From contig NC_007722.1 of assembly GCF_000013005.1 (NCBI RefSeq), positions 1,121,501 through 1,185,500 of the forward strand: a stretch of 64,000 nucleotides of DNA, given 5' to 3'. Under the pieces are notes generated by a model. It was not told the origin of the DNA and ran no database searches. It saw nothing but the letters and a program-made list of their open reading frames with translations. Shown here piece by piece: positions 25,603 to 32,978 of the stretch. This DNA comes from Erythrobacter litoralis HTCC2594 (GTDB lineage Bacteria > Pseudomonadota > Alphaproteobacteria > Sphingomonadales > Sphingomonadaceae). Made by a program: the position numbers and the translations under genes. How positions within the stretch are numbered: the stretch's first letter is position 1; every line of letters begins with the position of its first letter.

Positions 25603-26562
25603 CTAATATTGAAATAATCCATCAAAAACACGCTCCAGCTTGAAATCGAAAGTTTCGATGCGAGGCCAGTCCGGCGGTGGCTGATGCCGGAACCAGGTAT
25701 ACTGCCGCTTGGCATAATTGCGCGTCGCTTGCTGGCCAGAAGCGATCATTTGGGGCCGGTCAATCTCGCCTTTCAACCAGGCCGCGATTTCGCGCACGCC
25801 GATAGCGCGCATCACTGGCAGGGACGGATCGAGATCGCGTGCGAGCAGAGTCTCAACCTCGCTGGCAGCGCCACGATCCAGCATAAGCTCGAATCGGCGG
25901 TCGCAGCGCGCATAGAGCCACTTCCGATCCGGGAGCATGATCAGGGGGTGGAGCGCGACGCGATCGCCGATGCCCCCTTTCTTGTGCTGCTGCCAGTTAC
26001 TCAGCGTCCGGCCGGTGGATCGCACGACTTCGAGCGCGCGCGCCGTCCGTGCGGCATCGGCGGGGGCGAGCCGCTTGGAGGCATCGGGGTCCTCGCGTTC
26101 GAGCGCCGCGCGCGCTTCATCCTGCGGCAACGCTCGAATCGCCTCGCGAATGGCGGCATCGATCGGCGGGATCGGGGCGATACCTTCCAGCAGCGTGCGC
26201 AAATACAATCCGGTTCCGCCAACAAGGATCGGCACTGCACCTGTGAAGTGCGCCTTGGAAATCTCTTCCTTCGCACGCGAAGCCCATTCGGCCGCAGAGC
26301 AGGCTTCGGCTCCGTCCCATTCCCCGAAAAGTTCGTGCGGGACACCGCGCATTTCATCTTCGCTGGGCCGCGCGCTCAGGACGCGCAGATCGGCATAGAC
26401 CTGTGCGCTGTCGGCGTTGATCACGACAGCGTCGCGCCCGTGCTTTTTCAGCGCCAGCGCCAGCCGCACCGCGACATCGCTCTTGCCGCTGGCGGTCGGC
26501 CCTGCAATGAGCGCCACCGGCGGTTTTTCGCCCCAATCTTCCGGAGTTTGCCCCATGCTCAT
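25603..26562 (-). CDS. miaA: tRNA dimethylallyltransferase
   Basis: 319 residues: P-loop [36 protein letters not shown] (catalytic Asp), [35 protein letters not shown] and the C-terminal [12 protein letters not shown]. It prenylates A37 of tRNAs reading UNN codons. ATG at 26562 or 26556 are equally possible. Both lie inside the divergent serB start, so the two genes are head-to-head with overlapping 5' ends and miaA must be transcribed from within serB coding DNA. Confidence 0.95.
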
Positions 26563-27430
26563 CGTCCGCCTGATAGCAGACCCCGCCGGGTTGGAAACGC
26601 GGATCAAGAACCTCCGCGCGGCGTGGGATGACAAGGGCTGGTCGTCGCGCATCGAGAGGGACGCAGGCGCCATGGTCGAGCTGCGCGTTTCGAGTTGGGA
26701 CGTTGCAGAAGTGCGCGTGACTATCGACGAGCGCATCGGGCCGAGCGATGGCCTCGTAACGGCAATCCCCCCTGTCACCCCGCGTCTCTTCATCTCCGAC
26801 ATGGATTCCACCATGATCGGGCAGGAATGCATCGACGAACTGGCCGACTATGCGGGGATCAAGCCGCAAATTGCCGCCATCACCGAACGCGCGATGCAGG
26901 GCGAGCTCGATTTCGAAGCCGCACTACGTGAGCGGGTCGGGTTGCTCTGTGGGCTGGAAGAAGGTGCGATTGCGCAGTGCCTTCATGAGCGCATTACGCC
27001 CAACCGCGGCGCGCGTATCGTGGTCGAAACGCTCAAGGCGAAGGGATGCAAAACAGTGCTCGTCACCGGCGGATTCCATCACTTCGCCGATCCGGTCGCG
27101 GCGCAGATCGGCTTCGAGCGCGTGGTCGGCAACCGTCTTGAGGTTTCAGACGGAAAGTTGACCGGTGGCCTCGACGGACCGGTCGTCGACAGCTCGGTAA
27201 AGCAATCGGTGCTCGAGGAAGAGATGCAAGCTCTCGGCGCTCGCGCGACCAGCCTCGCGGCGGGCGACGGGGCCAATGACATTCCGATGCTGGACGCGGC
27301 CGATATCGGCGTTGCCTATCGCGCCAAGCCGAAAGCGCGCGCATCGGCAAACTGCTGGATCGATCGGGGAGACCTGACATCGATCCTCATACTTCTGGGT
27401 ATCGCCACAGAAGACTGGGCGGAAACCTAA
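26555..27430 (+). CDS. serB: Phosphoserine phosphatase
   Basis: 291 residues. The HAD motif I is [13 protein letters not shown] with nucleophile D and acid D two residues later. Motif II is [15 protein letters not shown] and motif III/IV is [26 protein letters not shown]. An N-terminal region of about 75 residues precedes the HAD core. It performs the last step of serine synthesis. ATG at 26555 has GGAG 9 bases upstream. Its start codon shares the CATG with a miaA start on the other strand. Confidence 0.96.
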
Positions 27431-27453
27431 ACGCGAATGCCTGTTTCATCCTA

Positions 27454-27475
27454 TATTGACACTCGTGTCAGTAGT
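27454..27475. promoter_or_regulatory. Operator-like inverted repeat upstream of the first coq4 gene
   Basis: TATTGACACTCGTGTCAGTAG contains the perfect half-sites TGACAC and GTGTCA separated by two bases, the form typical of TetR-family operators. Almost the same sequence (TATTGACATGAATGTAAGTAG) precedes the second coq4 paralogue at 29088. It lies 24 bases after serB and about 23 bases before the coq4 start. Conservation between two otherwise different upstream regions supports function. Confidence 0.55.
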
Positions 27476-27497
27476 AGCGAAGGGGAACTCCCACCCC

Positions 27498-28352
27498 ATG
27501 AAGACGATGATGAAACAGACTCCTTCCCCCGCAACGCCCAATGCCGCGATTGAAAGCGCGCCGGACGGCACGATTTTCCGCCATCCGGATCGGCCCATGC
27601 CGAAACGCGATATTCGCGCTGCATTTCACCATTTTCGTGAGTTGCTGAAGGACAAGGAAGACACGACGCATGTCTTCAAGATCTTCGAAGCTTTGCCATC
27701 GAAGCGGTTCGTGCCTTTCGCCCGAGCGTTTGCGCTGAGCGAAAAGGGCGCAGCAATCCGCGCGCGTGAACCCTACCTGCCGACCGTGCTCGACGATCAT
27801 GCTATGCTCCGCAAGATGCCGATGGGCAGCGTCGCGCATGCCTATTGCGACTTCATGGAAAGCGAAGGCCTGACCGCTGCGGGGCTGGTGGCCGAGGCCG
27901 ACAAGACATGGCCTGATCGCCCCAAATATGGCGACCTGATCGAATGGTATGCCTGGCGTCGCCGCGATACGCACGACCTGTTGCACGTGCTCACGGGCTA
28001 TGGCCGCGATGCGCTGGGCGAACAATGTGTGCTTGCCTTCACTTATGGCCAGAACGGCGGCTTCGCGCATCTCTTCATCGCCTATCTCGGCGCGCTCAAT
28101 ACGAAGAAGGCTGTGCGGTCGCCCGCGCCGGTGTTTCGCGCCGTCCGGCAGGCGCACAGGATGGGCAAGGGTGCGCCGCGCATTTGTGAAATGTCAATCC
28201 TCGACCTGTTGGCGATGCCGCTCAGCGAAGCGCAGGCCATGCTCGGCGTCGGCGATCCGACATACTACGAGCAATGTCACGCGGCGTGGCGTGGGCAGGG
28301 CATCGACCCCTACGACCTGCTGGGCCAGCAAGCCGCCACTGCATCGGCTTAG
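27498..28352 (+). CDS. Coq4 family protein (first paralogue)
   Basis: 284 residues. The Coq4 domain carries the zinc motif HDxxHx11E as H159-D160-L-L-H163 ... E175, within [18 protein letters not shown]. The N-terminal 35 residues are extra. Eukaryotic Coq4 acts in ubiquinone synthesis, where it is implicated in C1 decarboxylation/hydroxylation; bacterial members are poorly studied. ATG at 27498 has AAGGGG 12 bases before; ATG 27507 is an alternative. Its 3' end overlaps the convergent nitroreductase-family gene by 4 bases. An operator-like palindrome lies upstream. Confidence 0.85.
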
Positions 28353-29032
28353 AGCCAGCTGGCAATCTGGCTGAGCGGCTTCTTCCTGATCGCATGGATG
28401 GGCACAGTGGCACCTTCCGCAGGCAGCCCTGCCACGACGATCATCAACGGCTTTTCGTGTTCGGGCCTGCCGCATAGCTCGCGCAGGAAACCCATGGGGG
28501 AGGGCGTGTGCGTTAGCGTGGCCACGCCTGCTTCGTGCAAGGTAGCAATCAGCATTCCGCAGGCGATGCCGACGCTTTCGTTGACGTAATAATTTTGCGT
28601 TTTACCGTCTTCCTCGATGCCGCCCTTCCGCTGGGCGAAGACGACGATCAGCCACGGCGCAGTCTCCAGGAAAGGCTTGTCCGGGTCGGTGCCGATCGGG
28701 GCGAGGGCTTCGAGCCACTCTTCGCTCGCCTTCGGCTTGTCGCCGTCCACGCCGTAGAAGCGGCGCTCTTCCTCTTCGGCGGCCTCGCGGATCGCCTTCT
28801 TCTTGTCCGGCGACGAGACGACGGCGAAATGCCACGGCTGATGGTTGGCGCCGTTGGGCGCGCTTCCAGCGGCGAGGATCGCCTGTTCGATCACTTCGCG
28901 CGGGACGGGCGCGTCGGAGAAATAACGACAGGTCCTTCGCCCTGCGAGCTTTTCCCTCATGGCAGTAGCCTTGATTAGGCGTTCTGCATCGGACAGCGGC
29001 GGGAGCGCATACGGAACGGTTTCGTGCGGCAT
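28349..29032 (-). CDS. Nitroreductase-superfamily flavoprotein, iodotyrosine deiodinase-like
   Basis: 227 residues with the FMN-binding [13 protein letters not shown] and [13 protein letters not shown], and [32 protein letters not shown], the pattern of the iodotyrosine deiodinase (IYD) branch rather than general nitroreductases. The residues that clamp halotyrosine in IYD appear conserved: E89 and Y93 (EERRFY, spaced by four) and K119 (KPFLETAP). It may dehalogenate halophenols or reduce a related aromatic. It lies between two coq4 genes, with a 4-base 3' overlap with the first. ATG at 29032 lacks an obvious ribosome site. Confidence 0.8.
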
Positions 29033-29087
29033 CGTACAATAGCTATCGGAGGTTTCAGCTCTGATGAAAACCCTCTTCGCTGCACGG

Positions 29088-29108
29088 TATTGACATGAAT
29101 GTAAGTAG
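29088..29108. promoter_or_regulatory. Operator-like repeat between the deiodinase-like gene and the second coq4
   Basis: TATTGACATGAATGTAAGTAG matches the element at 27454 in 16 of 21 positions and keeps the inverted half-sites TGACAT and ATGTAA (one mismatch). It lies in the 104-base divergent gap, 56 bases from the deiodinase-like start and 28 bases before the second coq4 start, so one regulator could act on both. TTGACA here could also serve as a -35 box. Confidence 0.55.
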
Positions 29109-29136
29109 AGCGCATTTTCCTCGCAGGAGATAGAGG

Positions 29137-29918
29137 ATGGCCCTGACAGATCGCCCGCTCGTGCACCCCGACCGCCAGACGATCGGGTTCAAACCGCTCA
29201 AGGTGTGGCACCATTTCCGCAAGCTCGTGGCCGACAAGGAAGATACTGCGCAGGTCTTCCACATCATCGAAGCCACCAAGAGCAAGAAGAGCCACCGGCA
29301 AGCGTGGGATTTCGTCCAGTCGGAGGAGGGGCAGCGGCTCCTGTCGGAAGGCGTCGACATTCCCACCGTGCTCGACGATCACGAACGCTGGACTGATTGC
29401 GGTCCGGACACCGTCGCGCAGCACTACATCCGTTTCATGAAGCGCGAAGGGCTGTCCGCTGCGGGACTGGTCGCAGAATCGCATCGCTGGTTGCCGCCGG
29501 AAAAACGCCTGCCCGACCTCACCGAATGGTATTTCGAGCGGCTCCGCGACACGCACGACCTGTTCCATGTCCTGACCGGTTATGGCCGCGATGCGCTGGG
29601 CGAACAGGCGCTGCTGGGTTTCAGTTACGAGCAGAACCACAATCCCGGCATCCTCTTCATCGCCTATGCCGGCGCGCGCGAAATCAAAAAGGCGACCGGC
29701 ACCAAAGCCCCGCTCTATGCTGTGGTGAAGGAAGGCCGCCAACTAGGCCGCGCGGCGCAGAAGCTGGCGCATATGGATGTCGAGCGGGTGATGCGCGAAA
29801 ACCTGGATGCAGCGCGCGCACGCCTCGGCATCGGCAAACCGGTGATCTACCGCGAGTGCTTGAAAATCCTCGAAGCCGAAGGGCACACCGAAGAGCAATT
29901 GCTCGCGCCGCAGGCGGC

Positions 29919-29922
<4 letters not shown>
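29137..29922 (+). CDS. Coq4 family protein (second paralogue)
   Basis: 261 residues. It contains the same zinc signature: H140-D141-L-F-H144 ... E156 in [18 protein letters not shown], and [23 protein letters not shown] matching [22 protein letters not shown] of the first copy. The two proteins are clear paralogues, but diverged over most of their length. GGAGATAGAGG gives a good ribosome site. Its end overlaps the DUF3052 gene by 4 bases on the opposite strand. Which copy, if either, serves ubiquinone synthesis is not evident. Confidence 0.86.
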
Positions 29923-30734
<812 letters not shown>

Positions 30735-30743
30735 GCGCGATGA

Positions 30744-32978
30744 TCAAACTTCCATCCACTCGCGGAAGAAGCTCGCATGGGCTTCGCGCAGATCGGCAAG
30801 TGAGACGCCCAACAGGCCATCGCCGCCGACGGTGCCGATGCGCCGGAAACCTATCTGTGCTGTTTCCGCGTTCTCGGTGCCCTTCGACAGCGCTTCGTTA
30901 AGCGCTTCGGTATCGGGCACGGTCACGACATAGCGGCCCTGGTCTTCGCCGAACCACCACTGCGCCGCGGTGTATTCGGAGTTTTGCTCGACATCGGCTC
31001 CTGTGCCGCCAGACAATGCCATTTCCGCCAGCGCCACCGCCAAGCCGCCGTCGGACACGTCATGCACCGCGTTGACCAAGCCATCGTCGATCAGTTCGTG
31101 GATAATCTTGCCCGCGTTGCGCTCGACCACGAGGTCGGTCGGCGGAGTACGGCCTTCGTCGCGGCCATGGACGACATCGAGCCACAGCGACTTGCCGAGA
31201 TGCGACCGGGTCGGATCGGGCGTGGCCCAGAATTCGGGGCCTACTAGGTAGATCGTATCGCCAGCGTTCTTGAAGCCCATCGTCATCATGCGTTCGTAAT
31301 CGTCGATGATGCCGACCCCGCCGATGGCAGGGGTGGGCAGGATCGCCGAGCCGCCGCCGGTGGCCTTGCTCTCGTTGTAGAGACTGACGTTGCCGCTCAC
31401 GATGGGAAAATCGAGCATGCGGCAGGCATCGCCCATGCCGCGCAGGGCCTCGACGAGCTGCGTCATGATTTCCGGGCGCTGGGGGTTGGCGAAGTTCAGG
31501 CAGTTGGTAACCGCCAGCGGCCGCGCACCGACAGCACACAAATTGCGATAGGCTTCGGCGATAGCCTGTTTGCCACCCTCGTAAGGATCGGCATAGCAAT
31601 AGCGCGGAGTGCAGTCGGTACTGATGGCGAGAGCCTTCTTCGTCCCATGCACACGCACCACACCAGCATCGCCGCCGGTCTGCAGCGTATCGGCCCCGAC
31701 CTGGCTGTCATACTGCTCGGCGATCCAGGCGCGCGAGGCGAGGTTGGGGGAGGCCATCAGCTTGAGCAGGTCCGCCCCCGGATCGGCGCTGTCGGGAGCA
31801 TCGGTGATCGGTGCGATCTTGGCCCAGGCCTTGTATTCCTCGAGGCTGATGGTCGGGCGATCGTAGAGCGGAGCCTCGTCGGCCAGCGGGCCGAGCGGGA
31901 TGTCGCACACAACCTCGCCGCCGAACTCCAGCACCATGCGCTGGGTATCGGTGACTTCGCCGATGACCGCGAAATCGAGCTCCCATTTCTTGAAGATTTC
32001 GGCGGCCATCTCCTCTTTTCCGGGCTTGAGCACCATGAGCATGCGCTCCTGGCTCTCGCTCAGCATCATTTCGTACGGCGTCATGCCTTCTTCCCGGCAC
32101 GGCACCTTGTCCATATCGAGCCGGATGCCGGTTTTGCCATTGGTCGCCATTTCGACGCTGGAAGAGGTCAGGCCCGCCGCGCCCATGTCCTGGATCGCGA
32201 CGATGGCATCGGTCGCCATCAGTTCGAGGCAGGCTTCGATCAGCAGCTTTTCGGTGAACGGGTCGCCAACCTGCACCGTGGGGCGCTTGGCATCGCTGTC
32301 TTCCTCGAAATCGGTCGAAGCCATGGTCGCGCCATGGATGCCGTCGCGCCCGGTCTTGGAGCCGACATAGACGATCGGATTGCCGACGCCCGTCGCAGCC
32401 GAGTAGAATATCTTGTCGGTATCGGCGACGCCCACGGTCATCGCGTTGACCAGGATGTTGCCGTCATAGGCCGGGTGGAAATTTGTTTCGCCGCAGACGG
32501 TCGGCACGCCGACGCAATTGCCGTAGCCGCCGATCCCCGCGACCACGCCCTGCACCAAGTGCTTCATCTTCGGGTGCTCAGGCCGCCCGAAGCGCAGCGC
32601 GTTGGCGTTCGCCACCGGCCGCGCGCCCATGGTGAAGACATCGCGCAGGATCCCGCCGACACCCGTTGCCGCGCCTTGATAGGGTTCGATGTAGCTGGGG
32701 TGGTTGTGACTCTCCATCTTGAAGATGGCTGCATGACCATCGCCGATATCGATCACGCCGGCATTCTCGCCCGGGCCGCAGATCACCCACGGTGCCTCGG
32801 TCGGGAGCTTCTTCAGGTGCAGGCGCGAGGACTTGTAGGAGCAATGCTCGCTCCACATGACCGAAAAGATACCGAGCTCGACAAGGTTGGGTTCGCGCCC
32901 CAGCGCCTTGAGGATGACATCGTATTCTTCGGACGAGAGGCCGTGCGACTCGACCACTTCTGGCGTGATTTCAGACAT
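30744..32978 (-). CDS. purL: Phosphoribosylformylglycinamidine synthase subunit PurL
   Basis: 744 residues, the small (PurS/PurQ-dependent) form. It shows the N-terminal [45 protein letters not shown] with the catalytic His region, [29 protein letters not shown], and the second half [17 protein letters not shown] and [19 protein letters not shown]. It catalyses the glutamine-dependent fourth step of purine synthesis. purS and purQ are not adjacent. Start at ATG 32978. Confidence 0.97.

Follow-up and report, generated by a model that had tools for sequence, protein, structure and literature searches.

Two Coq4 genes of Erythrobacter litoralis HTCC2594 share a conserved operator with a TetR-linked set of aliphatic-lipid genes

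Why do two paralogous Coq4 genes flank a gene for a flavoprotein of the iodotyrosine deiodinase (IYD) type in the alphaproteobacterium Erythrobacter litoralis HTCC2594? The arrangement lies in a stretch of 64,000 nucleotides (NC_007722.1, positions 1,121,501 to 1,185,500, forward strand), which as a whole is called the window in the following. A preliminary description, made from the sequence of the window, had proposed a regulated unit of three genes that handles a quinone-like or halogenated aromatic compound. Comparison with related genomes points in a different direction: each coq4 gene is preceded by a palindromic operator, a feature unmentioned in that description, and the operator recurs at genes of aliphatic-lipid metabolism elsewhere in the genome. 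The features concerned are the following.

27454–27473, forward strand: operator A, TATTGACACTCGTGTCAGTA, before coq4A; no mismatches to the cross-genome consensus
27498–28352, forward strand: coq4A; PF05019, 284 amino acids, with HDxxHx11E; also supported by orthologues and fold
28349–29032, reverse strand: gene of a flavin mononucleotide (FMN) flavoprotein of the iodotyrosine deiodinase type; PF00881, with E89, Y93 and K119
29088–29107, forward strand: operator B, TATTGACATGAATGTAAGTA, in the divergent gap between the IYD gene and coq4B; one mismatch to the consensus
29137–29922, forward strand: coq4B; PF05019, 261 amino acids, with HDxxHx11E

Gene identities, reading frames and strands agree with the preliminary description, as do the overlap of 4 bases (28349–28352) between the convergent 3′ ends of coq4A and the IYD gene and the shared gap of 104 bases between the IYD gene and the divergent coq4B. 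The Pfam scores as Coq4 are 35.8 bits for coq4A and 49.0 bits for coq4B (curated cut-off 22.9, both above), and the flavoprotein is recognized as Nitroreductase with 86.1 bits, also above the cut-off. For coq4A the ATG start was chosen; an alternative TTG upstream, at 27456, falls within operator A. Both Coq4 proteins contain HDxxHx11E, which we take to be the metal-site motif of Coq4 and which had been noted before in both copies; it is present in 73 of 76 rows of Coq4 relatives, among them five clipped duplicates that were dropped before the operator count. A recent, non-functional duplication is ruled out, as Coq4A and Coq4B are only 44% identical, fall into separate clades (compared without the five duplicates and without rows shorter than 181 residues) and both retain the motif. 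Scans of positions 27300 to 30000 for promoters (no sigma-70-like sites, 0.6 in shuffles) and terminators (4 terminator-like sites versus 2.5 in shuffles) were unusable.

The palindrome, TATTGACA-N4-TGTCAGTA, was recognized by reading the upstream regions of coq4 genes in relatives. Three matches occur in the window (two sites, of which one matches on either strand) versus 0.02 expected in shuffles; a first, narrower pattern matched exactly at the coq4A site only and gave four matches at 2 mismatches. Among 44 IYD loci, with one genome counted twice (L097 and L007), the operator is found at no more than 2 mismatches before 23 of 25 left-hand coq4 genes and before 12 of 16 divergent ones. Within 4 mismatches it is found upstream of none of the 28 IYD genes that have no divergent coq4. 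When 2000 pieces of 270 bases were drawn at random from the window as a control, 13 matched at 0–1 mismatch, presumably because they took in the real sites, and none matched at 2–4. Among Coq4 genes with upstream sequence, the A clade (at least 54% identity) has the operator at 36 of its 40 genes and the B clade at 9 of 12; of four A-side genes that are more distant, 2 have it, as does 1 of the 15 remaining Coq4 paralogues. These per-clade counts indicate that it tracks the A and B clades, and neither IYD nor Coq4 in general.

Operator scans covered ten genomes and then a panel of 119 Sphingomonadaceae genomes, the second scan at no more than one mismatch; the counts out of 119 given below refer to this panel. 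Sites were found in 62 of the 119 genomes, and control matches amounted to 2 in total. The genome of HTCC2594, a single contig of 3.05 Mb, has a doubled site between a gene with a PF10118 domain and a divergent tetR, the sites at coq4A and coq4B, one at a cytochrome P450 gene and one at an acyl-CoA ligase gene. The regulator gene is the following.

G000:C1:597337–597939: TetR-family regulator gene; TetR_N with 30.4 bits against a cut-off of 24

The PF10118 gene beside it scores 269.5 bits. The P450 is of the CYP153 type (CYP153D17 524 bits, CYP153A7 433 bits; the best match, 6hqw with 684 bits, is named only Cytochrome P450) and is encoded 1.37 Mb from the coq4 locus, beside ATP-binding cassette (ABC) transporter genes. 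An orthologue of the TetR protein (E at most 1e-25) occurs in 92 of the 119 genomes, among them all 43 that have coq4A or coq4B. All 62 site-bearing genomes have the regulator, and none of the 27 genomes without it has a site at one mismatch. The distinct sites number 112, of which 46 lie within 1.3 kb of tetR, 36 by coq4A or coq4B and 30 elsewhere; the last include 12 at CYP153 genes, 7 at acyl-CoA ligase genes, 4 at genes of 4HBT thioesterases (56–63 bits) and 2 at further PF10118 genes. The conserved operator and the TetR-linked set of aliphatic-lipid genes, including both coq4 genes, are robust observations. The strict co-occurrence, together with the sites at its own promoter, suggests that the TetR protein binds the palindrome; we infer such binding, as well as repression, the ligand and the reaction of Coq4, and all regulatory statements made here are computational predictions.

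The pairing of a PF10118 gene, annotated as “metal-dependent hydrolase”, with a divergent tetR and a doubled operator was seen at several loci (L264, L267–L270, L374 and L375), two of which (L374 and L375) have a tandem pair of PF10118 genes.

We consider it probable that Coq4A and Coq4B belong to a dispersed regulon of the Sphingomonadaceae, controlled by TetR via the palindrome together with genes for aliphatic compounds and fatty acids, that they handle a long-chain lipid, and that the IYD gene is a neighbour. The TetR repressor would bind at coq4A and coq4B, at its own divergent promoter shared with the PF10118 metal-enzyme gene, at the genes of the CYP153-type alkane or fatty-acid hydroxylase and the fatty-acyl-CoA ligase and, in some genomes, at that of a 4HBT thioesterase. 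Its release by an aliphatic ligand, which may be a fatty acid, an acyl-CoA or derived from an alkane, would induce hydroxylation, CoA activation and thioester handling, and the hydrophobic pocket of the Coq4 fold would be where Coq4A and Coq4B bind this long-chain lipid or convert it. The IYD gene would share an operator region only where a coq4 gene is divergent from it. Action of Coq4A and Coq4B on long-chain lipids is suggested by the company of genes and by an oleate-bound relative: the structure predicted for coq4A has the Coq4 fold (the two fold predictions of this study, for coq4A and the flavoprotein, were built on alignments of 13 and 19 sequences), and the nearest solved Coq4 structure, Alr8543 (6e12), contains oleic acid.

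Several observations weigh against this reading. The oleate in Alr8543 is possibly a chance pick-up. At 2 mismatches the site is missing before 4 of the 40 A-clade and 3 of the 12 B-clade genes, although one of the four A-clade exceptions (genome G042) is an artefact of windowing and has a perfect site. Of the genomes with the regulator, 30 show no site at one mismatch and 49 have neither coq4A nor coq4B, so that Coq4 is not essential to the regulon. For 5 of the 112 sites (G010:C101, G089, G077, G057:3514172 and G068:978515) no gene was assigned, and the sites at acyl-CoA ligase genes overlap, or sit just inside, the gene start (L271, L276 and L278), hence part of the match there is coding sequence. 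The TetR protein matches no NCBIfam model above the cut-off, which makes any proposal for its ligand a guess. Finally, the Fisher P values for co-occurrence are not independent tests, since the genomes are related.

The main rival holds that the Coq4 pair still serves ubiquinone, being induced with fatty-acid or alkane oxidation to enlarge or repair a quinone pool that is fed by beta-oxidation and alcohol dehydrogenases. We think this unlikely. Sphingomonadaceae are ubiquinone producers, and the chemistry of COQ4 was long unclear. COQ4 is known to act in coenzyme Q biosynthesis, and both the Coq4 profile and HDxxHx11E are retained in the proteins studied here. No UbiD match was found in the HTCC2594 genome or in 114 of the 119 family genomes, which leaves the enzyme of C1 decarboxylation unaccounted for; Zymomonas is described as being without ubiD and ubiN homologs in a published study (PMC10626278). 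However, Coq4 was matched in only 63 of the 119 genomes and 56 have no match at E 0.001, a distribution that speaks against a ubiquinone role in a family of ubiquinone producers, whereas the scarcity of UbiD leaves room for one. Coq4 as a family-wide replacement of UbiD is ruled out (UbiD 5 of 119, Coq4 63 of 119), and the ubiquinone decarboxylase of Sphingomonadaceae is explained by neither, as matches are missing in 114 and 56 genomes, respectively. In addition, no ubi gene was noticed at the 107 assigned sites, in a comparison whose panel contained no ubi proteins and which left 5 sites unassigned. Ubiquinone is the less likely main role of Coq4A and Coq4B.

Other Coq4 genes of the family show surroundings of their own. 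The third Coq4 gene of HTCC2594 (C1:3016559; locus L279, G000:C1:3010500-3023500) is clustered with P450 and thiolase genes, and the operator was not found before it. In four genomes (L380, L383, L387, L396 and L398) other Coq4 paralogues adjoin genes of the AtuA type (acyclic terpene utilisation). Some genomes of the family have six or seven Coq4 copies, and at one locus (L053, G081:C8) there is a tandem pair of the other clade, in which our script found no HDxxHx11E and one member of which has an operator with 2 mismatches.

What, then, is the gene between coq4A and coq4B? The closest solved relatives of the flavoprotein are the IYD of Haliscomenobacter hydrossis (204 bits) and mammalian IYDs (142–146 bits); beyond the main IYD chains, one further chain named IYD scores 63 bits, and the best nitroreductase not named IYD reaches 41.6 bits. 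The best structure matches of its model (predicted local distance difference test, pLDDT, 85.7) are IYDs as well: the first 25 are all titled IYD, and the template modelling (TM) scores of the first 23 are 0.76–0.88 by query length. Judged by their entry titles, the matched structures include ones with mono-iodotyrosine and 2-iodophenol bound. E89, Y93 and K119, presumably the clamp on the amino-acid zwitterion of halotyrosine, have identical counterparts in the aligned IYDs of solved structure, bacterial as well as mammalian, and are retained in 137 of 137 relatives, of which 80 stem from a scan where one of two patterns forces E and Y, and 57 are pattern-free. Scores and structure matches thus agree with the preliminary description, which had noted these three residues and likened the protein to IYD, in placing it in the halotyrosine-deiodinase subgroup; FMN binding and reductive dehalogenation are predictions. 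Likeness to the solved IYDs (H. hydrossis 5ko7 and 5ko8, mouse, human) extends to sequence, fold and clamp; unlike them, the protein has coq4 as a neighbour and a lid that is longer by an insertion of five residues between Y93 and K119 (window positions 28730–28753, residues 94–101). The long lid is present, fully or nearly, at 20 of 30 family loci, and the short one at 24 of 27 class-level loci outside the family; among 80 loci from named genomes, the lid is short at 71 and has its full length at 5.

The surroundings of the IYD gene bear on the proposal that the three genes are regulated together as a unit that acts on a halogenated or quinone-like aromatic. The locus is bounded by two further genes.

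26417–27430, forward strand: serB-like HAD phosphatase gene; marks the left end of the conserved backbone
30744–32978, reverse strand: purL; marks the right end of the conserved backbone

An IYD orthologue (E below 1e-30, a cut of our choice) occurs in 44 of the 119 genomes, incomplete in two (G026, internal stop; G082, a 64-residue piece), and an A- or B-clade coq4 in 43 (partial in G039, 46% identical in G068). The two genes are adjacent, with gaps of at most 640 bases, in 31 of the 44 IYD-bearing genomes, so this adjacency recurs in the family. Moreover, all 11 coq4B genes found lie next to an IYD gene; the IYD in these genomes shares at least 77% identity with that of HTCC2594. Together with the retained clamp, the ligands of the solved relatives and the start of the IYD gene 55 bases from operator B, this favours a common unit. 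However, in many genomes the block lies between purL and a group of serB, miaA and ilv genes, which makes the adjacency in part plain synteny. Furthermore, coq4A stands between serB and purL without IYD (G098 and L401, also L049 and L062) and IYD beside purL without coq4 (G108 and L402). Overall, 12 genomes have coq4A or coq4B without IYD and 13 the reverse, which argues against an obligate unit of three genes. Outside the Sphingomonadaceae, none of 27 class-level loci (27 of 36 matches) has a Coq4 gene within 1.5 kb on each side. Among the 80 named-genome loci, which were listed from a larger scan, 8 have Coq4 near (L097, L098, L100–L105), each in a genome labelled as Sphingomonadaceae or as a genus of the Erythrobacter group. 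The 28 IYD genes mentioned above rule out the operator as an IYD feature and give no support for IYD belonging regularly to the regulon, the other targets of the regulon are aliphatic, and nothing beyond membership in an enzyme family was found for a halogenated or quinone-like substrate. Of the proposed “regulated unit”, regulation is supported in another form, by the TetR-type operator that coq4 has in common with genes for CYP153, acyl-CoA ligase, thioesterase and PF10118 proteins. The unit of three is not supported, and we consider it improbable. The IYD-type gene looks, from synteny, like an old neighbour of the lineage, and any co-regulation would be confined to genomes in which coq4 is divergent from it, HTCC2594 among them.

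Neighbouring genes (tdh, kbl, miaA, ilv, acyl-CoA dehydrogenases, DUF35 and nitronate-monooxygenase-like) were named from their first residues only. Outside the sphingomonads, a tdh-like (threonine dehydrogenase) gene is near the IYD-type gene at 9 of the 80 loci (L108, L111, L113, L117, L125, L127, L138, L140 and L141), at 7 of them immediately upstream; 9 loci, mostly the same ones, have a kbl-like gene nearby.

That the operator is real and read by another regulator, with the TetR gene merely co-occurring, would agree with the predicted nature of TetR binding and with the 30 regulator-bearing genomes that have no site, but is very improbable given the 46 sites close to tetR, their doubling in the gap between tetR and the PF10118 gene in several genomes, and the 27 genomes that have neither regulator nor site.

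The regulon thus favoured, with Coq4A and Coq4B among its lipid genes, resembles known systems in part. The FadP and PsrA regulons of Proteobacteria, likened here by description, also have a TetR-family regulator, dispersed sites and targets in fatty-acid degradation (PMC5343134); in contrast, the core in the present case is tetR with PF10118, joined by a CYP153 P450 and Coq4 paralogues, and “Coq4” does not occur in the main text of that paper. A CYP153-type P450 is shared with the CYP153 alkane hydroxylase systems and here stands beside an operator of the same regulon; in the present case it is remote from the coq4 locus, in the company of the ABC transporter genes. From COQ4 and the bacterial Coq4 proteins Alr8543 (6e12) and Npun (3msq), to which identity is only 23% and 19%, the present case differs by the operator held in common with lipid-catabolism genes and by the two divergent paralogues, which are not found in many members of the family. 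Among the literature matches listed, none describes Coq4 as part of a TetR or alkane regulon.

A bolder proposal, to which we give little credence for now, is that proteins with the Coq4 fold act in Sphingomonadaceae as enzymes that break down aliphatic and isoprenoid chains, with the HDxxHx11E metal site serving oxidative decarboxylation or hydroxylation of long-chain acids, either under the TetR/PF10118 regulon with CYP153 (Coq4A and Coq4B) or in terpene and P450 islands (other paralogues). If true, the C1 chemistry of ubiquinone would be one specialised use of a wider family of lipid-chain enzymes. COQ4 is a human disease gene, and Coq4 relatives that share an operator with alkane and fatty-acid genes, and without which about half of the family manages, may offer a tractable route to a function of the Coq4 fold outside ubiquinone synthesis. 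The DNA site and the regulator, together with the PF10118 enzyme, are now directly testable in bacteria of the Erythrobacter group.
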